Part shown: positions 7,464-32,848 of the stretch, piece by piece
How positions within the stretch are numbered: position 1 is the first letter of the stretch
How the letters are laid out: every line of letters starts with the position of its first letter
Assembly (NCBI GenBank): GCA_004369045.1
Contig: ML213514.1
Coordinates: forward strand, 46,596-110,595
Length of the DNA stretch: 64,000 nt
Reading direction: 5' to 3'
From: Heliocybe sulcata
Taxonomy: Eukaryota; Basidiomycota; Agaricomycetes; Gloeophyllales; Gloeophyllaceae
Made by a program: the position numbers and the translations under genes
Notes under the pieces: generated by a model
What the model was told of the DNA's origin: nothing
Database searches by the model: none
The model's input: the letters and a program-made list of their open reading frames with translations, nothing else

Positions 7464-8852
7464 TCAAATGCCCGACCCACGCTTCTTCAGAAGCTCCTTT
7501 GCAATCTCTTCCGTGTCGCCGGACGGATCCGGCAGCCAAAATGCCTAAAAGTCGTGTCAGCTCCATAAAGCTGCTGCGCAATTCTGACCCTTACGAGCTC
7601 GGATCCGGCGGAACACATCATCGCCAGACGGGGGTTGAACCTGACGCATCGCGACGGCCCTGGATGGCCCTCCAAGGTCGCAAGGGATTGAATCCGCACG
7701 GGAGGGCTCTTGGGATCCACAGCACCGGACTTTTCAGGGAGGTTCTGTACGTCCCACACACATATCTTCCCGTCCAGACTGCCACCGAGTACGAACTTGC
7801 TGTCTGGTGTCCACGATACTTCTTCCCCGCTACAACCTCGCACAGGAGTGATACCTGGCGGAGTATTGAGGTTTCTCCGTTCAAGACCTACGTGTCCCTC
7901 GAGTTTTGCAAGCAGGTGCCCTTCGAACGCATCAACGATGTAATGCGCATCGCCTGAGCAGCCAACCAGAATGTATTTCGCGTTCATAGAGAAAGAAATT
8001 GATGTCATAAATATGGGGCGAGGAGGATAGCTGATCTGGGCAAGGGTCGGATCATCCATAGTTATGACGAGGAATGGTGTCTTGTCGAAGTTGGCTGGAT
8101 CGTAGAGAAGGATCCGCTGATAGTCATTGACTGCAACAGCAAAGACAAGGCCCTCGCAATCGAATGCCACCACGGGTGAAGACGGCAGATTCAACAGGCC
8201 ACGGCAGCTTGGAGTTCTAAGGTCCCAAAGGCGCACTGTTCTGTCCAGGGATCCCGATATGAACCCATCGTCCACCGGTGACATCTCCAGACTGACCACG
8301 CGCTGCGTGTGTCCCCTGAAATACTGCAGATATCTGTTGTCGTGTAGGGAATGGTAGCGGATCGTATCGTCCTCTTTAGTCGACGCGTATATAATCGCAG
8401 TGTTCTTGTGAGTAAACCGCGGTAGATCGACGCCGTATTTCTTCGACTGCAGAGTCTTCAGATGTCTACGGAAGAGGAAACTCATTCAGCCACAAGAGAA
8501 GGTGCAAATACGAATGGGACTCGCTTGCCAGTTTTGCAGCTATACAAACGAAACGATTCATCCTCAGACGCCGTAATCAACTGGTCTCCTCGATCATCAA
8601 AACATATCCCAGTAATATGTCTTGGTCCCATATTCGTGTTGCGTGACGGAAAACTTCCAGGACTTGGAGGTGGGACGTGTTCTACCGCTCCTTTGAAGAT
8701 CTTTGCCGGTTTCAACTTACTCTGCATCTCCTGTCAGTGAGAGCTCCGCTGCATTGCAACTCGATCGTTTTTACCATGAGCGCCGGAGTCAATGTTAATG
8801 AGGTTGGCGTCGGACGAGACGGCCCCGCCTGGGCATCATTATGAGGAGGCAT
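7464..8852 (-). CDS. SWD2: Swd2/WDR82-like WD40 subunit of COMPASS and the 3'-end processing complex
   Basis: WD40 beta-propeller shared by the Set1/COMPASS histone H3K4 methyltransferase and, in yeast, the cleavage and polyadenylation factor. ATG at 8852 starts MPPHNDAQAGPSRPTPTSL; a short intron then leads to EMQSKLKPAKIFKGAVEHV. Repeats follow: ITGICFDDRGDQLITASEDE, GVDLPRFTHKNTAIIYAS, YFRGHTQRVVSLEMSPVDDG (with GSLDRTVRLWDLRTP), and VSWTPDSKFVLGGSLDGKIC. The C-terminal exon gives AFWLPDPSGDTEEIAKELLK and ends RGSGI. The intron at 8466-8524 joins TGK to HLKTLQSKKYGVDL in frame only if the donor is GC (gcgagt), so it is a GC-AG intron. Divergent from Rpb5 with 137 bp between the start codons. 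Confidence 0.9.
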
Positions 8853-12800: not shown

Positions 12801-13073
12801 CTTACCGGCAGCGCACACGGCCTCTCGCGCGACGCTACCCTGCGCTTAACACATACGCGCCAGAAGCACGCTCATAATCGAGCTGGCCAATATCCCGGTT
12901 CATTTCGGGGATCTCGATGAATTTCCACCTCAGATTCATCTACTCACTCTCCGTCAGATCAATTTTATCTCTGTGGCAGGGTCACTTTCGGACGAAGACG
13001 CGACCGGCGTATAAAGAGCCATGCCATGCTCTCCTGACAGAGCATTCTGTCCTGTCTCCGGATCCATACCACA
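9895..13073. other. Gene-poor block upstream of terpene synthase 1
   Basis: About 3.2 kb without a gene I can support. Open frames such as 11329-11760 (-) and 12207-12608 (-) show no family motif and no neighbouring exons that extend them. I saw no transposase, terminal repeat or tRNA. The last 60 nt hold the likely core promoter of the terpene synthase. Base composition is not clearly AT-rich, so decayed coding or duplicated DNA is possible. Confidence 0.5.
13010..13016 (+). promoter_or_regulatory. Probable TATA box of terpene synthase 1
   Basis: tataaag lies 64 nt before the ATG at 13074. The second terpene synthase has a TATA-like element at a similar distance from its start. Spacing and motif fit a core promoter; not proven. 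Confidence 0.45.
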
Positions 13074-14190
13074 ATGTCTCCTGCAGCTCCTCCTAAGCAG
13101 TTCTACATTCCCGATCTCCTTGCTGTCTGCCCCCTTGAGGGTAGCACCAATCCCCACTACGACAAAGTCCATGTCGAGTCCTCGGCATGGGTCAGCAGCT
13201 ACAAACTCTTCACAAATCGCAAGCGCCTCTACTTCATCTTGGGCAGCAACGAGCTTCTCGTGTCGCACACATATCCGTATGCCGATCGTGACCAATTCCG
13301 GACATGCTGTGACTTCGTCAACCTCCTGTTCGTTATCGACGAAGTCAGCGACGAGCAAAGCGGTTCAGATGCCCGTCAAACCGGACTCACCTATGTGAAC
13401 GTTATGAAAGATCCCAGCTGGGACGACGGCTCCGCATTGGCGAAAATGACGCGAGAGTAGGTCCCATCGACCCTGACACACGAGTTACGATTGACGTGAT
13501 CCGCTGATAGTTTCCGAGAACGCTTGCTGCGGCACGCTGGCCCTGGCTGCTTTCGGAGGTTCCTGAAACATTCAGAGGACTATGTTGAAGCAGTTGCAAA
13601 GGAGGCCGAGTACAGGGAGCGCGGCGAGGTCCTTGGTAGGGATGCGTTCCGCGACCTCCGGAGGGAGAACAGCGCGGTCCGCCTCTGCTTTGGTCTTTTC
13701 GAGTTCTGCCTCGGTGTCGATCTGCCCGACGAGGTCTTCGAAGACCATACATTCATGAGCCTGTACTGGGCTGCATGCGACATGGTTTGCTGGTCCAACG
13801 TAAGTTGCTGGCCCGCTTAGCTTCCGCGTCTCGATGCTAATCTTGCGTATGCAGGATGTCTACTCTTACAACATGGAGCAAGCCAAGGGCATTGGTGGAA
13901 ACAACATCGTTACCGTCCTCATGCAAGCAAAGAACCTCACCCTCCAGGAAGCTTGCGATTATATTGGCAAGTACTTCAAGCATCTAATGGATCGGTTTGA
14001 GGCGGACAAAAGACGCCTTCCCTCTTGGGGACCCGAAGTTGACGAGGCCGTCGCGGGTTACGTGAGGGGAATGGAGAACTGGATCATCGGCAACTTGGAA
14101 TGGAGTTTTGAGACGCAGAGATACTTTGGCGCTAATCATGCCGAGGTCAAACGCTCACGTTTGATCACTCTGCTTCCCGCGGAAGACTAA
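13074..14190 (+). CDS. Class I terpene cyclase (sesquiterpene synthase), copy 1
   Basis: Cyclises a prenyl diphosphate, probably farnesyl diphosphate, to a sesquiterpene hydrocarbon. Three exons, 13074-13456, 13511-13799 and 13855-14190, join in frame to 335 residues, the usual size of basidiomycete sesquiterpene synthases. The metal-binding aspartate-rich motif DEVSD is at residues 89-93. The NSE triad NDVYSYNME starts at 224, and the conserved RY pair is at 313-314. The N-terminus ([19 protein letters not shown]) and [13 protein letters not shown] block are typical of fungal protoilludene-type cyclases, but the product cannot be read from sequence. A close paralogue lies inverted at 23005-24184; the two genes face each other across the cystathionine beta-lyase-mevalonate kinase gene. 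All active-site motifs are intact. Confidence 0.93.
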
Positions 14191-18013: not shown

Positions 18014-18678
18014 CTAGAGAACCCGCCTCTCGCAGCGCGTCTCATCATGCACCGCCTCGCAATTGAGGTCGCAGTAGGGCATACCGCACCTTTTGCACTT
18101 GTATTTGCCCCAGTAGCTGCAGACGCTGCAGATTAGACGCGGAGGTTCCTTGGGAGGGGGTACAGCTGCTGTTAGATAAGTAGGGCCAGATGATTCAGCT
18201 ATGCCCTGTTCGACGACCTGAGTTTTGAGTACGACGAAGTGGGTATTAGATGTACGCACAGACTCTTGTATCAGCGTGGCCAGGTTTTTCCGATACAGAA
18301 TGGCAGTACGAACGTTCATAGACGACTTCTTCTGTCTGCCGCGGTCACGTTTATCGGAAATGGTCTGACGAGCGCGTCCTCGAGCTGTTGTTCCTGTGTC
18401 CGGGTCTTCGTCATCTACGCCCGCAAATGATGTGGAGGGTTCACTGTAGTTGGAACGCTGCAGTGTACTTAATGAGTATCTCCGTCGTGGGAGGTACCTG
18501 TCTGGTTACCTCTAGCTCGTCGAGGTGACGCTTAGTGCGCTTTGCGATGAGGTCAGGGTCGATGTGGACGCGAGCCGCAGCTGCCTCAACCCGGACTTGG
18601 CGTCGAGCTGAGACTCTTGTCAGACACGCCAGAGGAGGAGAAGGAAGGAGATGTACGTCGACCGCGTTTCGGAGGCAT
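18014..18678 (-). CDS. VPS71: Swc6/Vps71 (ZNHIT1), zf-HIT subunit of the SWR1 chromatin remodeller
   Basis: Subunit of the SWR1 complex, which places histone H2A.Z. ATG at 18678 gives MPPKR; a short intron then joins to VSARRQVRVEAAAARVHIDP and LIAKRTKRHLDELE, the conserved N-terminal segment. After another intron come YSEPSTSFAGVDDEDPDTG and a basic stretch, then MNVRTAILYRKNLATLIQES and NTHFVVLKTQV. The C-terminus is a complete zf-HIT domain: ICSVCSYWGKYKCKRCGMPY followed by CDLNCEAVHDETRCERRVL, with the eight metal ligands (Cys/His) present. All junctions have GT-AG ends and keep frame. Lies between gene-poor DNA and the fusion gene; divergent from the latter with about 570 nt between start codons. 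Confidence 0.88.
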
Positions 18679-19250: not shown

Positions 19251-22200
19251 ATGGCGGCCCCCAGCAAACTGACCGACCTGCACGACCTTCCGACTCCCGA
19301 CCCAGAGTCTCCTTACCGCTCTCGCAAGCCCTACCGCTTCTCCACCTTATGTGCGACAGTGGACAACCCGTTCGCGAAGGACCAGTATGGATCGAGCTCA
19401 GTGCCCATCTATCAGACTGCCACGTTCAAAGGAGTCGCGGGCGAGTATGACTACAGCAGGAGCGGCAATCCCACTAGAAGTCACCTAGGTGAGTCCTCGC
19501 TTCGCTGCCCGTAGTTCTGTGGGTATCGGTGCACGCTCAAACACCGCTAGCTGCGGATGGAGAGCGATCCTGCCATACCTCTCATCTTCCTAACAGTCTG
19601 GCTCATTGAATTCCTGCGTAGAACACCACATTGCAAAGATCTCCTCTGCCGGTCACGCATTCGCCGTCTCGTCGGGCATGGCTGCCCTGGATATCATTAC
19701 CCGCCTACTCAAGCCGGGCGATGAAGTAATCGCAGGTGACGACCTCTACGGAGGCACGAACCGTCTCCTCACCTACCTGAAAACGAACGGCGGAGTGACC
19801 GTCCACCACGTCGACACTACTGTTCCCGAAAATGTACTGCCCCATGTTAAACCCGGCAAGACCGCGATGGTGCTCCTCGAGAGCCCTACGAACCCGCTTC
19901 TTAAGATTGTCGACTTGGCAAAAATCGCAGCTGATGTGAAGGAACGCGCTCCGGATGCAGTTATTGTTGTGGATAATACCATGATGAGCCCGTATTGTCA
20001 GCGGCCTCTGGAGTATGGTGCGGATATCGTTTATGACAGCGCGACTAAATACCTGAGCGGCCACCATGACTTGATGGCGGGTATCATCACCTGTAACAGG
20101 GACGACCTTGGAAAGGTGCGTCCCCAAGGTTTCCTGTTCCCCTGCAAACTCTTAAGTCAGTGACTTCTGTAGCAAATGGCGTTCATCATCAACTCCGTCG
20201 GGAATGCCCTGACACCGTTTGACTCCTTCCTTCTTCTAAGGGGCTGCAAGACTCTTGCGATCCGCATGGACCGGCAACAATCAACGGCGATGCATGTTGC
20301 GACCATGCTCGACCGCCTCGGGTTCAAAGTGAATTACCCCGGGCTGCCGAACCATCCGGGACGTGCCATACACGAACGCATCGCAAATGGATACGGCGCT
20401 GTATTGAGTTTTACCACTGGAGACAAGGCGTTGAGCGAGAGAATCGTGGGCGCGACGCGATTGTGGGGTATCAGCGTAAGTTTCGGCGCCGTGAACTCGC
20501 TGATTAGTATGCCCTGTGTAATGTCGTGAGTATCATCACTGCTTTCTATCTTTTCAGATCACGCTGAGCATTCCACAGACATGCCTCGATCGATGCTGCG
20601 ACTCGTGCAGCACGTGGCCTGCCCGAAGACCTCATCCGACTTTGCGTGGGTATTGAGGATCCGGAGGATCTGCTTGACGACCTTGAGCATGCTCTCCTCG
20701 AAGCTGGTGCCATCACGGTGTCTGCAAATGCAGATGAGCACCAGTATGTGCGCGCGACGACGTCGACGTCTATCAGCCGCGCGGTCGAGAAGCTTGCGAT
20801 CAGCGAGGCTCCGCAGAGGCCGAGGGAGAGGAGGGAGTGGTTCGTGAGTGCTCCAGGGAAGGTCATTCTGTTCGGCGAGCATGCAGTCGTGCATGGCGTG
20901 GTAAGTTGATTGTCTAGTCGGTTTCCGCTTGATGGATCCACTGATCTGGGTCTGCAAAGACCGCTGTTGCGGCTTCAGTTGATTTACGCTGTTACGGCCT
21001 GACAACACCCCGCCATGATGGGAAGCTCTCCGTGCAGTTCTGCGACATCGACGACTTTTATGCCGAATGGGACGTCGATCAGTTGCCGTGGGACGCGGTG
21101 ACTCCTGTTTCCGTCGGCGAGGAGCATCCGGAGGCACTGGACCAAAGGCTCATCGACGCGATCAACAATAGGGCTATGCCTGCGGATGTGGACAAGTCTT
21201 CCAAGGCGAGAGGTGCGGCCCTTGCGTTTTTGTACTTGTATATGGTGATGGCCCATGGAGGCGAGAGGTAGGCTCTCGACGCAGTGCACTGGCGAGTTGG
21301 CGCTGACTACTTGGCATACAGGCCTTCGTTCAACTTCACCGCGCGCTCGACATTACCGATCGGCGCTGGTCTTGGGTCGTCTGCGTCCTTCTCCGTGTGT
21401 GTTGCGACGGCGCTGCTCCTTTTGCACCAGCGAATTGAGATACCACCCTTGCCTGCGCCGACGCGGGAAGCGGGCGGCGGGGACCCGGGTCACTTGCATG
21501 TGTCGCACCAGGGAAGGAGGGCGATTCCACCGAGTGTGGCGGAGGAGGCGAACCGCTGGGCGTTTGTGGGCGAGAAAATATTGCATGGAAATCCGAGCGG
21601 GGTGGATAACTCGGTGTCGGTGTATGGTGGTGCGTTGGCGTATACGAGGGCGGGCTTTGCGAGGAAGAGTGGGATGGAGCAGATTTCCGGGTGAGTGTGG
21701 GTTTGTCTTGGGGTATGGGGTGGGATACTGATTGTGAAGGACAGATTCAAGAGTCTCAGGTTTTTGCTTACGGACTCGAAGGTGCCGCGAGACACGAAGA
21801 AGCTTGTGGCGGGCGTTTCTGAGATGAAGGAGCGGGTAAGTGAACGCAGAGTGGTGTTTGAAAGTAATGATTAATCAATTCCTTACAGGAACCTGAGGTT
21901 GTTAATGCAATTCTCGAGGCAATCCAAAGTATCAGTGACGAGGCGAGACGTGCGCTTGCGGATCCTGAGCTCTCCCGCGAGGCGTTGCTCTCGGCCATAT
22001 CCGTGAGTAGAAGAAGCTCCTGCACTATACAGATAGCTAAACGAGGTTACTTTTATAGGCATTGATTAACGAGAACCACGCGCACTTGGTTTCCTTGGGC
22101 GTCTCTCATGCGTCTTTGGAGGCTATCAGAGCCAAGACTGCACAGAGCGCGTACAAACTGAGTACGAAGCTCACTGGCGCCGGTGGCGGCGGATGTGCCG

Positions 22201-22533
22201 TCACTCTCGTGCCTGATGGTTAGCGCTTTGTTTGTTTCGACCAATCACGCCTTCTGACCCTAACCCTTCGCAGACATTCGGGAGGAGCTACTACAACAGC
22301 TTATTGCCGAGCTTCTCGCGGATAACTTCCAGCCGTACCTGACGTCGGTCGGTGGTAGCGGGTTGGGTGTCTTGTCGCCTTACGGTCAGGATGAGCCGTC
22401 CACGCCGCCGGCAGAGGCAGACGAGGGCGACAGCTATATGACTCGCGAGCCGCTGCGTGCTACTTTCCAGGAGAAAGCTGTACGGGAGTTGTCGGAGTGG
22501 GCTGAGTCGCGTGGGAGGTGGCTGTATGTCTGA
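19251..22533 (+). CDS. Cystathionine beta-lyase-mevalonate kinase fusion protein
   Basis: Ten exons (19251-19488, 19622-20115, 20173-20525, 20579-20900, 20960-21267, 21322-21690, 21745-21835, 21889-22002, 22059-22218, 22274-22533) join in one frame to 902 residues; every intron is GT-AG and every phase fits. Residues 1 to about 405 are a fungal cystathionine beta-lyase, which cleaves cystathionine to homocysteine using PLP. They include SSVPIYQTATFKG, DYSRSGNPTRSHLE, the PLP lysine K222 in SATKYLSGHHDLMAG, and SFGAVNSLISMPCVMSHASI. Residues 451-902 are mevalonate kinase, which makes phosphomevalonate. They include GHMP motif 1 VSAPGKVILFGEHAVVHG, motif 2 PIGAGLGSSAS (584-594), catalytic D667 in NPSGVDNSVS, and motif 3 KLTGAGGGGCAVT (from 800). 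The 45-residue polar linker and both domain edges lie inside exon 4, which has no stop and no in-frame ATG. Two chains made by unseen processing remain possible. Confidence 0.9.
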
Positions 22534-23004: not shown

Positions 23005-24184
23005 CTAGTAAACTGTAGCATCTTGAGCGATCAGCAGCACGAGTGACTTGGTAAGGCACGTACTTTTGGGACCCTCATCCTCCTCTTCCCGCGGACGCAG
23101 CTTGACAAGACGTGTCCTCTTGACCTCCTCAACCTCAGCTCCGAAGTACCTTTGCGTCACCAGACTCCATTCGACGTTTCCTATGATCCAGTTCTCCATG
23201 CCCACCATATACAAGGCAACGTCCCTGTCGACAGCGGGACCCCATGAGCGAAGCCTCCGCTTGTTGGCCATGAATGTGTCGACGAGATTCTTGAAGTGCA
23301 CTCCGGTGTAGTCGGATGCTTCTTGAAGGGTGCACTTCTTTTCGTTCATGAGGACGGTCATGACATTATTGCCGGTCAGGCCCTTGGCTTGCTCCATGTT
23401 GTACGAGTAGAGGTCCTGAAACGACATCCATCAGCTTATTGTCATTAGCGGCTGCCAGAGTCACGTACATTTGACCAGCAGACTGTATCAACTGCTGCGA
23501 GATACATTTCCTTGAACACCGGGTCTTCAAATACTTCGTCAGGCAAGTCGACGCCCATGGCATATTCAATCAGACCGAAACAAGTTCGGACGGCGCTGTT
23601 CTCCCGCCTCAGAGGAATGTATGCTTCTAGGCCAAGAACCTCATTTCGGGAGCGTAGTTCAGCCTCGTAAGCGACGGCATGGATATAGTCGCCAAATATC
23701 TTGATAAAACGCCTGAGAGAATTGGGTCCTGCGCGACGGGTCAGTCGTTCCCGGAACCTGAGCGAGAAAAGTCAGTAAAGGCCACTACAACATCATTAAA
23801 TAACACGCACTCCCTAGCCATTTGCGCAAGGACGGAGCCGTTGTCCCATTTGGGATCCTTGAAGACGCTGAGGACTGAGAGACCGGTCTGCAGTGCGTCA
23901 TGACCCGACTGCTCGTCGCTTATTTCGTCAACGACAAACAACAGGTTGACAAAATCGCACACGGTGCGAAATTCGTCGTAACCGGCATAGGGATAGGTGT
24001 GGGAGACGAGCAGTTCATTGCTCCCAAGTACGAAGAAGAGACGCTTGCGGTTGGTGAAGACTTTGTATTTACTGACCCAGTTGGACGATTCGGCGCCAGC
24101 CTTGTCGTAGTGAGGGTTGGTAGAGCCTACAAGTGGGCAGACAGCAAGCAGGTCGGGGATATAAAACTGCTTGGAGGGAACCAT
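23005..24184 (-). CDS. Class I terpene cyclase (sesquiterpene synthase), copy 2
   Basis: Paralogue of the cyclase at 13074-14190, sharing long identical blocks such as [44 protein letters not shown] and [14 protein letters not shown] at 24184 gives [13 protein letters not shown]. The aspartate-rich motif is DEISD, the NSE motif is [13 protein letters not shown], and the RY pair is in [17 protein letters not shown], so the active site looks complete. Introns interrupt the gene at the same places as in copy 1 (after MARE and after CWSN), supporting duplication after the intron pattern was set. The C-terminus is longer than in copy 1, with an acidic [10 protein letters not shown] tail; a possible 42-nt intron there does not change the stop at 23005-23007. 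Substrate is probably farnesyl diphosphate; product unknown. Confidence 0.93.
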
Positions 24185-27100
24185 AGTCGAGGACGAAAGG
24201 TGGTATGTCTAGGGGATGTGAATTCTGGGTTGGAGATATACGGAAAAAACAGAGATCTTTTAAACCGCTGCGTTGGCGCTATTCTCGGGCTAGCGCCAGG
24301 ACTTTGGCGTAGGTTGACGACATATCACAGCACCCAGACTGCACCAGATATGCCGATGAGACAACTTTAGCTGCATGGATAATAATTAATGGCCGATCAA
24401 AATGCAGACCTCATTCCATTGCGGTTGCAACGGCGACCATGGGTCAGCGCTTCCTGAGAGCGCTAATCGCGTCCAGTCATGATCCTAGCATGAGAATTCA
24501 ATCATCAGCTTGAAGTGCTCGCGGAGATAGGAATACAGTGACGAAACTCCGGTATGCCGACATGAGCGATATACCTGCGGCTCCCAAGTTTGCCTACCTT
24601 AGTCCCAGCATCGATAATACGAACGAGTCTCGTTTATTGCGCGTAACTTCCGTTTTGTAGGGAAAGAAGAAGTGCTTCTTGCTCATTACACAGAAGCACG
24701 GCGGGGGACCCTCGACACCGGGCCGCTTCAACCATGCATGCATGCAGCTGGCCATAGAAAAAACATCCATGCACTGGCTCTAGCTGGGAACTGTATATCG
24801 CGCATTCTGGTAGAGATTGAGCAGGTATCGAGCGCTAAGTACATACTCCCGGACTCCAAGCGCCTGAGGCCCGAGGTTTCGATATCCAGGGGTCGCTGTC
24901 ATGAGCTCTTTGTTCCGCTCTTGTCGTCGGGTTGTTCGTCCCAGGTTCGTTCAATGTAGCATCATGCCGGTCTTCAAGCACACGGCAGGTTGATCTTTTG
25001 TACGGTCCGTTTGAGAACGTTGTTCCTCGAATGGCTCAGGACGATACGCTCTGATCGTTCCTCAGTCGAGTTGCTGCTTCGTTGTGGCTCGAGAGCGGCC
25101 TCGCGTCAATCGCCGACACTCGCGCTACCTATAGCTATGCAGTCACCAATTCGGATCATGTGTACGTGTCTCAGTCTTCCGATGGGTTCGCCAGTCTGAT
25201 TGGGATTTCTTCCCGTAGAAATCAGTCATAACCCAAGAGTCTAACTTGTCGGTTGGTGTGCGATTCCTTTCGTATGAACCCCGAGAATCTAGCGCTTCAG
25301 CACAGGATGACCCTTAGGGAGCTGAGGTCCAAGAGGAAGGCGCTATCCATCTAATGATGGAAAGACGTTTCTGCCCTGCCTCACTGTTGCTAAGACCAAT
25401 GGAGGCCTTGACACGCAGAAACCTGCTTGAAGACATCACGGACGGATCATCATCCTCAGACATAAGACATTGCCGCCGAAAGGCGCACCGAAGCGCTCCA
25501 CGTATTCCTTCCTGAATTGCCACCGACTTGAGCTGTATATCGGCTATAGGGCATCAGCCTCCAGGTAAGTCGATACGGCGATCCTCAAACGATGTCTCCC
25601 TACTTTCGGAAGATTCTATCTATAGAAGAAAGAAGGCGCAAGGTATATGATTGCCAAGGCACTAGACGAGAGTATAATTATCGGTGCATTTGGATCCCTC
25701 GCAGGCCGCAAAAATAGATTCCACCCGCATATCTCGTCTCGATCCCGCCGGCACTGGAGACTAGGATCGGATATGAAACGCGGCTGCGTCAGATTGGGCA
25801 CAGCAGGGTGATCATCTCTACTACCTTCGTTACATATGTTGATTCTGAGAGCTACAGCGTAGTGCCATGGTCCGGTACGCACGGTATTCCTGCCTTTCTG
25901 CGTCCGTCATGCTTCTCTTCCTCATCCCCTCACTTCTCGGTTCCACTCTACCACATTCCACCGTGCACATTCGTCACTTCAGAATCAAGTATTGCCTTCA
26001 GTCTTCGTGTCGTCCTGGAAGTTCGCAGTATCCTACATATCCGATCTCTCCATGGTCGCGACGACGCCTCGTGTTCAGTGTCCAAGACACTGCTTCGTAG
26101 TGAGACCTATCCTCCTCGGGCACTGCATCATCAGGCATAACTCGCTCCCACGACGCGGGCGATGTTTGCCGTTACTCTAATCCATGTCTCAAGCATTGGG
26201 AGTACCAACTAACGCCACGTGAGTGTCATTCCGGTGTCGTCTCCAGAATCTTACTCCGCCGGATTCCGCAGATGCTTACTACTGCTGACCTCTTTGATAA
26301 TTCTCTGTGAGCTGGGTCATGGCCTGCCGGTGATCCATGTGCACTGAAATATCGACATCGATCTATATTGCATGATCTCTGCTCCGCCAATGGCTGACTC
26401 ACCAGTTGTCTACCAAAGTCCGCGGTCATACCGCACAACAGCTCATCATCGGTACTAACTATTCATATCGAGCTGCACTCGCTGATATACGGTAGTCCAT
26501 CTGCGCTCTTCTGTAAAAGGTTTCGTCAGCGAGGCCCGGTACATTGAAACAACTCTGTAAGACTGACTTGGTTAATGTCACTGACGATAGTAATTAGATT
26601 AACCCTTCCAGCTTCAAAGGCGCGGGTTCCATCTCAAGCCTTGAACGTCCGTACGTATCCGAGTTCAGGTTACAAGGGCCCTTATGCCGAACAAGGGACA
26701 TCATCTACCAAAGGCGGCTGATAACGGATGTGTCAACTTTACCAGCTTAATGGAAGAAGGCTCATACGGTCCAGTGGCGGTTACTGTGTGGCGTTCTCAG
26801 TATGACTGTTTTTCCTCGGCGACTTCGTCCTCCGCGGAGCTGTTGACCCTATTAAAGAGGCCTTGGGCTTGAGCAGGCGAATCTTGCCCCCCCCTCCTCG
26901 AGTAGGTGCCAGCAGTCGCCCCCTCATGGCCGTCTACGAACTAAGCTCACGCCTATGAACATTCGTTGCCATCATGGATGCTCTACTCAAATGGAATACT
27001 GAGCGCCAATTTCAGTACTTTCCGGCTCGGACCTGCTCGTGTCTCTTCTTGCTTTGCCATACTCATGGTCTGGAGGACATCCATCTTGATCTCCGTGAGG

Positions 27101-29857: not shown

Positions 29858-30342
29858 ACTCGCACTTCGACATCTCACCGGATGTTGGATCTTGAATATC
29901 TCTTGTTGATACCCGTTCGCGCATAGCTCCCTGACCTAATAAGCGTTCATTTGTTATGTCTTCGACGCTCTGCTATCTCGAAAACCCAGGTCTGTTTCTG
30001 ATCCGGATAGCCGTCCTTCCGTGTGTGCCATGATTAATATATCATGAGTGACATCTTCAAATAAGCACAGTATTAGGTACTGGAGCATTTCGAACAATTG
30101 TACATGGATGTGGCGACAAGGTGGGGAGGCCGGTGCCAAACAACGTCAAATTCACCATTGGCAGCTTCTGAATCACTAGAAAGCTTAGGGACTTATTCAC
30201 CTGCCGCTCGTCCGCCGCGTATCTAATGTAGGAGTTCCGGCCACCTCTCTCGAGGCGTGAAGCTTGATCCGCACTTTTCTAGCCTGGTCGCAATCCAGTT
30301 CTGTGTATACGACCAGCGTTGCTCTGGAACACGAGAGATCTC
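29858..30342. other. Intergenic region, TPR gene / NPR3
   Basis: About 485 nt between two rightward genes. Holds the 3' end of the TPR gene and the promoter of NPR3; nothing else seen. Confidence 0.5.
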
Positions 30343-32848
30343 ATGGCGGAAACACTCTTGGCCTTACTGCTTGTGACGTCCTCTGCGAAAGGTTCGAGCT
30401 TGGTATACCATTGGCCTGAGAGTCCGAGATCACTACCAAGACTTGCCAGACCCAGGCCAACCGGAGGGACAGCTCTGCTGGCCCAGCTAGATAACCCTTG
30501 CAGGGCGATTGAACTGGATGCGTCTGAGCGACGAGCGAGGTTGCCGAAGGTTAGGGCTTACTCAGCTGAGGATAATGACTACGAATGGAAGCGGCCTCGC
30601 TCCTCCCGCAGACGATCCACGTCCTTTTCGCGGGCAGGTTCCGTTCCGGCTTCCGGTCGGAATTCGCCCGTGAAAGAGTGCGGTTATGACCTAGACGGCC
30701 AAGGGAACCTTGCTATTGCAGAAGAGTATGATGATCTCCTAGGCTACTCTGCTGAATTTTTGGCTGGCATTCTGTGCCCCCAACGCTCGCTGTGCCATCA
30801 GAAGTTTGAACTTATTGTCGATGACTTGGCCTTCATAGGGCATCCTGTCTGCACAGAGGATGATGGGGTGTGGAGATTCAAGTCAGAGACGAAGCCGAGG
30901 TTTGGCGCAAGAGGGAGGGATCCTCGAACAAAGGATGCATCCCCGAGACTAGACTCCCCAACGAGTTCCCCAAGAGTCGGTCCCCTACAGGACGAGCAGG
31001 TTTCCGGAGAAAGTTCGTGGCTTCAAACATTCCATTTCGTTATTGTCCTTGATCTGCCGGACCCCTCATCTTCGGCGTCTGGCAACGTCCTCAAATATTT
31101 TCACATAATATACGAACAGATCGCATTCGCAGTGACAGCTGTCCTGTTCCAGCAGCAAGTCGCTGTGAACTTTGTGGAGAAGGAGTGCGATAAACTGGGC
31201 TCTTTGAAAGATGAATACAGTGCAAAGGGTACGTCACTCGAACTGTGAATCGACCGAGTCTAGCTGAGGAGAAGTAGGTGAACCTTATTCAAAGTATATG
31301 AAAGACGCGCTTGAGATCTCCTCTATCGGACCCGCAATGAAAAGTATCTTTGAAGCTATCAAGAACTCGAGCATCGCGCAGATAGCTATTGACGCTATCC
31401 CACTGGAGCTACAGCTCCCTCCATACCTGGATAGACTGCTTCATAGTCAGGAAGAAGCCGACCTGGACTACATAGATCGCGACGATGAAGAAGTTGAGGG
31501 ATCGTGGGGCAAGGATATGTCATTCGCATGGCGATTGCCGCCCCTGTCCCCGTGGAAAGCCTTACTCCTGCTTGGCGAGGATGACTCCGGGCTTGATTTC
31601 TATGGCAATCTGCAAGGTCCTCATCAGAGCTCGGAAGAGCGTAGACTGGCGCAGACTCTGATGAAATTTCTGGACTTGGCGTCTATAAGGCTTCAGTAAG
31701 GCAATGGTCACCGCATGGTACGATAGCCGGCTGACAACCTATCTATTTCTGTAGATTAGCAGACATGGCCATCGAGCTGGACTGGGACCTAGAAAATCAG
31801 GTCTACCCGGTAGTACGTTGGCTTATTTATCACAGGAGGGCCAAAATCGTCGATGTGATCCATGAAGGTTTGAAAACTGTCTTCACTGTTTCTCCCCAAT
31901 TCAAGACTCCGTGAGTCATCTAGCCTCCCGACTCCATTACCATACCCAATTTCTTGCAGCCTGCCCGTGTTAAGCCAAGAATTCTCCGCAAAGTTTCCCC
32001 CGAGCATACCTCCCCTTCCCGTCATCCTCGCCCTCGTGTCCGGCTCTACATCGCAGCAGACGGACAACACCTTCTTCGCGGCTGTGGTGCGAAACAAAGA
32101 GCTGGTACCAGCATATCACGACGTTGTTGAGTGGATGCTGAAGAAAGAGCTTCTGGTTACGATGCACCTACGCATCCGTGTCATTGCACCCGCCGCCTTG
32201 AAGAAGAAAGTTCGTGGGATCTGGCTCAGCCGCAGGCGAAATTTAGGTCAGAACATTGTAGGCACTGGCCGCGGGTCTATCGGAGGCTCGGGGCCGATCC
32301 ACGTCGAGCTGGACGCGATCGCGCAGGCGTCTCCTCCTCCGACGTTCCTGTCGATGTCGCCCAGGAGCGTCAGGCGACGTGTCCTGAATTCGGCTGACTT
32401 GGACGGGTCCGCGATTGACGACGACGACGAGAGCAAGGACGAGGAAGATAGCGGCTGTGCGGGGGATATGGAGTTCCCTGAGGATTATGGCGCCTTTAGC
32501 GACGAGCAGCCGTCGCTGATAGATGATCCTGGCACTGCGAAACCCATTGAGCGGTGCTGGTTAGCAGCCATGTCGGAGGGCAAGGATCTTCTTATCCAGA
32601 GGAGATTTGAACAGTGCGTCAGTCTTGTTTGGTCTTGACCTCTTGGACTTACCGGCAGACTACCAGGATTAATCAGTTCTTTGATGGCAAAAAGACGGAC
32701 AATGAGATGTTGTTCCGTGCCGATATATCTAGAAAGCAGCTGCGAGAGGTCCTGCACCATTACGATGAATATGTGGGTCCTCCGTTCATTAGAATATTGG
32801 GCACGCTGACCGTCGCTGTAGCTGCAAACATTTTTGCATCCGTCGTGA
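30343..32848 (+). CDS. NPR3: Nitrogen permease regulator 3 (Npr3/NPRL3), GATOR1/SEACIT subunit
   Basis: Acts with Npr2 and Iml1 at the vacuole to inhibit TORC1 when amino acids are scarce. ATG at 30343 (an in-frame ATG also lies at 30319) gives MAETLLALLLVTSSAKGSSL, VYHWPESPRS, the canonical NPRL3 N-terminus. Further family blocks are LLGYSAEFLAGILCPQRSLC, HQKFELIVDDLAFIGHPVC, SWLQTFHFVIVLDLPDP, KYFHIIYEQIAFAVTAVLFQ, and VNFVEKECDKLGSLKDEY. Next are SIAQIAIDAIPLELQLPPYL, MSFAWRLPPLSPWKALLLL, LADMAIELDWDLENQVYPVV and RWLIYHRRAKIVDVI. The C-terminal exons give IERCWLAAMSEGKDLLIQRR, RINQFFDGKKTDNEMLFRAD, SRKQLREVLHHYDEY and, after an 89-nt class intron, LQTFLHPS with stop at 32846-32848. A low-complexity acidic insert (near 32400-32470) separates the last blocks. 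Complete. Confidence 0.92.

Follow-up and report, generated by a model that had tools for sequence, protein, structure and literature searches.

The window analysed here, a stretch of 64,000 nucleotides of the Heliocybe sulcata genome (assembly GCA_004369045.1, contig ML213514.1, positions 46,596 to 110,595), carries on its plus strand a ten-exon gene that encodes a predicted cystathionine beta-lyase (CBL) and a predicted mevalonate kinase (MVK) as one polypeptide. The gene and its neighbours are listed below, with positions counted from the first nucleotide of the window.

7490-8485, minus strand: WD40 protein, neighbour
13038-14190, plus strand: sesquiterpene synthase (Terpene_syn_C_2), upstream of the fusion; extent of the open-frame pieces rather than of a complete gene model
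18017-18505, minus strand: HIT zinc-finger protein, neighbour
19251-22533, plus strand: the CBL-MVK fusion gene as a whole; ten exons, with a spliced frame of 902 aa and a stop
19251-19488, 19622-20115, 20173-20525, 20579-20900 and 20960-21267, plus strand: exons 1-5 of the fusion
21322-21690, 21745-21835, 21889-22002, 22059-22218 and 22274-22533, plus strand: exons 6-10 of the fusion
19251-20708, plus strand: CBL half, running from exon 1 into the first part of exon 4; domain at residues ~32-405; PLP Lys222
20579-20900, plus strand: exon 4, in which the CBL end, the linker and the first kinase motif lie together; frame without stop and without Met
20709-20843, plus strand: linker of 45 aa (residues 406-450), variable and predicted with low confidence
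20844-22533, plus strand: MVK half (residues 451-902), with three GHMP motifs and the catalytic residues Lys456, Glu462, Glu656 and Asp667
21485-21529, plus strand: insertion in the kinase, residues 627-641, PGHLHVSHQGRRAIP
23005-24208, minus strand: second sesquiterpene synthase, paralogue of the first; downstream of the fusion and convergent with it; extent of the open-frame pieces
30283-32635, plus strand: pieces of NPR3 (nitrogen permease regulator), neighbour

All nine introns of the fusion gene have GT-AG borders (53-133 nt), and their removal yields the single frame of 902 residues that had been proposed from the nucleotide sequence, with a computed mass of 97.3 kDa. This spliced product is an exact match to a public H. 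sulcata protein (P0001). The original prediction also held that exon 4 contains neither a stop codon nor an in-frame ATG from which a separate kinase could start, that 45 residues link the lyase to the kinase, and that both halves retain their catalytic residues (PLP K222 in the lyase; D667 and three GHMP motifs in the kinase), and all of this was recovered in the coding frame. On either side of exon 4, the nearest in-frame Met is at position 361 and at position 542, and Met542 already lies past kinase motif 1. It should be noted that 147 of 5000 first-order Markov resamplings of exon 4 also left a frame free of stops, so that an open frame of this length is, by itself, weak evidence; the case for a fusion rests on the domain matches and on the exact identity to P0001 rather than on the open frame.

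In a Pfam scan of the whole protein, PF01053 spanned residues 42-401, and the kinase half matched both PF00288 and PF08544. Both halves passed the equivalog thresholds of the corresponding NCBIfam models, namely TIGR01329 for eukaryotic CBL (527.3 bits against a cut-off of 487.5; residues 32-405) and TIGR00549 for MVK (221.8 bits against a cut-off of 163.05). Residue invariance was assessed in 40 full-length fusions that were hand-picked as a sample across the basidiomycete subphyla. In the lyase half, D67, R70, Y122, D197, S219, K222, and R382 were invariant in all 40; going by the roles assigned in the CBL family, we take R70, Y122, D197, K222, and R382 to be the PLP lysine and the residues that contact cofactor or substrate. 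In the kinase half, K456, E462, S591, S592, E656, and D667, as well as the stretch GAGGGGC at residues 803-809, were likewise invariant in 40 of 40, and the GHMP motifs and catalytic Lys, Glu, and Asp align with those of rat MVK; K456, E462, S591, E656, and D667 are presumably the catalytic positions, given their roles in that family. Both halves are predicted to be active. Judged by its sequence, the Heliocybe gene is a real and apparently working bifunctional gene, and a further instance of a published fusion.

The kinase insertion PGHLHVSHQGRRAIP was found in 24/24 Agaricomycotina and 0/9 Ustilaginomycotina among the 40 sampled fusions, with a partial GRR motif in 3/7 Pucciniomycotina. We equate it with the insertion of 16 aa reported in PMC3342255, a match made to the description in that paper and not to its letters. 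In a larger set of 176 fusions, which remained after strict motif filters had removed 25 of 201 fusion-length proteins, the strict pattern SHxGR was present in 105, absent from 50, and unmeasured in 21. Nine of the 50 negatives are close homologues (P0005, P0037, P0042, P0045, P0059, P0061, P0062, P0067, and P0091), and nine spacings of 63-70 residues suggest that they have the insertion in the form of another motif. At the other end of the kinase half, the C-terminus (22450-22530, residues 876-902, including GRWLYV) is conserved, with LYV as the last three residues in 86 of the 176 filtered fusions and comparable triplets in many of the rest; the tail extends past the GHMP domain, and residues 881-902 have a pLDDT of 87-90 in the predicted structure. 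A peroxisomal PTS1-like C-terminus was considered and rejected, being found in 0/176 of these fusions.

The fusion gene seems to be the only source of either enzyme in this genome. An exon-wise six-frame search of 31.6 Mb in 51 contigs, the counts from which are lower bounds, recognised no second MVK, and the strongest genome match to the CBL model was the fusion gene itself. The four remaining GHMP loci correspond to homoserine kinase, galactokinase, diphosphomevalonate decarboxylase, and phosphomevalonate kinase. One kinase exon, on contig C13, was nearly tied between galactokinase and MVK (38.0 vs 36.1 bits) and was rejected as MVK because the next exon matches galactokinase only. Elsewhere, PF01053 was matched on C21 (best scores to cystathionine gamma-synthase/lyase models), on C15 and C2 (diverged), and on C25 (a fragment); among the PF01053 pieces scanned genome-wide, which include one of the two on C15, no other gene had CBL as its best score. 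The suggested check for another MVK or CBL in the genome thus came back empty at the resolution of this search. The piece on C25 (360551-360754) resembles the cystathionine gamma-lyase/synthase-type gene on C21 and is perhaps a decayed copy of it.

The original prediction named CBL-MVK as a combination not familiar from the literature; its novelty is not supported. The fusion has been known in basidiomycetes since 2012, when it was described twice, independently, in May (PMC3342255) and in October (PMC3468542), and it was repeated in two papers of 2013 and one of 2014. In the accessible part of PMC3342255, a "metC-MVK" fusion averaging ~886 aa is reported from 12 of 13 basidiomycetes examined, L. 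bicolor (Laccaria bicolor) being the exception; the fusion is described as the sole MVK homologue in the genome, with an insertion in the kinase, and its origin is placed in the basidiomycete ancestor. According to PMC3468542, the STR3 orthologue carries a C-terminal MVK in every basidiomycete studied there except Postia placenta, and no stand-alone MVK was found in basidiomycetes. Excerpts of later papers mention a fused transcript in Pleurocybella (PMC3720577), a fused transcript in Pycnoporus, the biological relevance of which was called unknown (PMC3846667), and a 918-aa fusion copy in Lignosus (PMC4129116). A functional test or enzyme assay of the fusion was not found in searches of open-licence PMC papers.

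A fusion private to the genus Heliocybe is rejected by homologue searches. A total of 927 whole-protein homologues were recovered; the best 120 each cover at least 91% of the fusion, and K222, K456, and D667 are present in the alignment of all 120. For nine of these 120, the fusion frame sits on a contig 2.9-3.2 kb long, a length that, on size alone, matches a spliced mRNA. In a broader search, the matches listed (best 120 of 4869) include fusions from Ustilaginomycotina (Ustilago, Sporisorium, Malassezia, Tilletia, and Exobasidium), from Pucciniomycotina (Puccinia, Phakopsora, Microbotryum, Rhodotorula, Sporobolomyces, and Mixia), and from further Agaricomycotina (Dacryopinax, Calocera, Tulasnella, Clavulina, and Auricularia); no Tremellomycetes were noticed by name among the matches listed. 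The fusion, as read from these database proteins, is present in all three large basidiomycete subphyla. Among the best 120 of 5716 matches to the kinase half, none that bears a basidiomycete name is a complete kinase standing alone; each basidiomycete-named match is a fusion, a piece that keeps a CBL tail, or a partial model (e.g., P0143, P0157, and P0197), and P0203 and P0235, which are among those beginning just before the kinase motif, fall outside the basidiomycete-named set. Additionally, Postia placenta MAD-698-R-SB12 has a fused protein of 909 aa (P0030), so the Postia exception, as it appears in the part of PMC3468542 consulted, is probably a matter of annotation.

Pairwise distances in the CBL and MVK halves are correlated (r = 0.88; 0/999 permutations as high), and the three subphyla were recovered in the trees of both halves, with weak support for Pucciniomycotina (0.65 and 0.67), which is lost as a group when MVK outgroups join the tree. 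Outgroups were included in the MVK tree only, where the 40 basidiomycete MVKs grouped as a single clade, apart from the 10 MVKs of other fungi (support 0.93); the tree of the CBL half is unrooted. The congruent distances and trees therefore fit a single history for the two halves, in which they would have been fused once, anciently, and inherited vertically.

Between the two halves, the linker has mean pLDDT values of 62, 45, and 39 at residues 411-420, 421-430, and 431-440 of the predicted structure. Its length ranges from 36 to 55 aa in the best 120 of 927 homologues and from 39 to 88 aa in the 40 fusions sampled across the phylum. A stretch like "AVEKLA" recurs in the linkers of many Agaricomycetes, and the linker sequence is unconserved between subphyla in the same 40 fusions. 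A Met occurs anywhere in the linker in just 26 of the best 120 homologues, at differing positions, and a conserved internal start was rejected on this ground, with three partial exceptions. These are P0003 of Gloeophyllum trabeum (88% identical), with a Met immediately ahead of the kinase motif, and P0081 and P0098, with a Met at most five residues ahead of it, so that a few relatives, unlike the Heliocybe gene, might conceivably start a kinase internally.

These observations bear on whether one mRNA might give rise to two working proteins, either because a protease cuts the linker or because translation also begins internally to give the kinase. Relatives of CBL are usually tetramers and MVK is usually a dimer, and separation of the subunits would ease assembly; a weakly ordered linker of variable length, and the three homologues just named, one of them a close relative, point the same way. 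Such a division nonetheless appears very unlikely, given that the Heliocybe frame lacks a Met between residues 361 and 542 and that linker Mets among the homologues are few and scattered. In our reading, the fusion protein would also stay uncleaved. Far less credible still, to the point of being nearly negligible, is that a gene model has wrongly joined two neighbouring genes. Many public records do name the lyase alone, and a stop-free stretch as long as exon 4 arises in about 3% of composition-matched sequences. Against this, the junction sits within a single exon, the kinase has no ATG for a separate start, fused frames recur across three subphyla, and fused transcripts are reported from two other species in the sections seen of PMC3720577 and PMC3846667. 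The position of the junction and the recurrence of the fusion led us to reject an artefact of the gene model.

The genes on either side of the fusion raise a different question. The flanking sesquiterpene synthases (PF19086) are 61% identical over 392 alignment columns, as compared from unspliced pieces. Positions no more than 5 kb from a terpene synthase match make up about 0.35% of the genome, a figure to be read with the fact that the proximity was noticed post hoc. An enoyl-CoA hydratase match (E 2e-8) lies on the minus strand of the same contig (C12:43279-43515), ~22 kb from the fusion and about 3 kb before the window start. No P450 gene was matched in the window among 109 matches listed, with 92 of 262 candidates scored. 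PMC7227769 describes a gene cluster, conserved in three Russulales, in which mevalonate kinase is accompanied by terpene cyclases, enoyl-CoA hydratase, and a protein kinase. By gene families, the Heliocybe neighbourhood resembles that cluster, with two terpene synthases flanking the fusion and the enoyl-CoA hydratase match farther off; since Heliocybe belongs to another order (Gloeophyllales), the terpene neighbourhood may be older than Russulales.

Taken together, we consider it highly probable (roughly 0.93) that the gene is the Heliocybe copy of the metC-MVK (STR3-ERG12) fusion, which would trace back to a single event in an ancestor of the main basidiomycete subphyla and would be made as one bifunctional polypeptide of ~97 kDa. 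In the proposed mechanism, the N-terminal PLP half is predicted to convert cystathionine to homocysteine, pyruvate, and ammonia, and the C-terminal GHMP half, tethered to it by a flexible linker, is predicted to phosphorylate mevalonate with ATP. Channelling is not expected because the two reactions share no intermediate. The most likely effect of the fusion would be fixed co-expression of two housekeeping enzymes at 1:1 dosage. The merger would have become irreversible once separate copies of both enzymes were gone, neither enzyme having one.

An adaptive coupling of the two activities is the main competitor to this account, tying the supply of methionine (S-adenosylmethionine) to isoprenoid flux or serving sesquiterpene production at the locus. 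It is proposed because ergosterol and ubiquinone synthesis need both supplies: the methylations of sterol C24 and of ubiquinone use S-adenosylmethionine. The two sesquiterpene synthases that flank the fusion, and the conservation of a mevalonate kinase/terpene cyclase cluster in three Russulales as excerpted from PMC7227769, would also be in keeping with such a role. However, yeasts and rusts also keep the fusion, no metabolite is common to both reactions, and the linker is unconserved between subphyla, so that we regard this explanation as doubtful. A stronger version, in which CBL oligomers scaffold MVK, so that the fusion is functionally locked and methionine/S-adenosylmethionine is tied to isoprenoid flux, and in which the fusion of Agaricomycetes is also a precursor-supply member of a sesquiterpene cluster conserved beyond Russulales, is quite improbable. 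Coupling of the two supplies, fixed stoichiometry and a tolerated merger had all been offered as possibilities in the original prediction; a tolerated and irreversible merger that gives fixed co-expression is favoured here over adaptive coupling.

The fusion poses the question of why so many basidiomycetes tether MVK to an enzyme of the methionine pathway. Its listing from each of the three large subphyla makes it a possible shared-derived marker. The many public records that name only the lyase also call for caution in annotation. In Ustilago maydis, MVK is given, in a published account available in part, as the one pathway enzyme without a KEGG prediction, and we infer that the fusion is the cause of that missing prediction.

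Among solved structures, the top sequence match is Arabidopsis CBL (PDB 1ibj; E 9e-108, residues 25-400), which is alike in fold to the Heliocybe lyase half and is a stand-alone enzyme. The rat and human MVKs (PDB 1kvk, 2r42, and 2r3v) are also stand-alone and have a gap at the place of the PGHLHVSHQGRRAIP insertion. The metC-MVK of Ganoderma lucidum and other basidiomycetes, so far as the available text of PMC3342255 describes it, shares with the Heliocybe gene the order of its parts (CBL N-terminal, MVK C-terminal), its status as sole MVK homologue, and an insertion in the kinase, with an average of ~886 aa against 902 aa. The Heliocybe fusion is 73% identical to Ganoderma P0038 and P0045, and sequence divergence is the sole difference seen. 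The STR3-MVK of PMC3468542, as partly seen, is the same fusion, apart from the P. placenta exception made there, where P0030 is fused. Finally, a fusion of spermidine synthase and saccharopine reductase, described in PMC10051792, likewise unites housekeeping enzymes from two separate pathways and occurs in basidiomycetes but not ascomycetes; the enzymes differ from the CBL-MVK pair.
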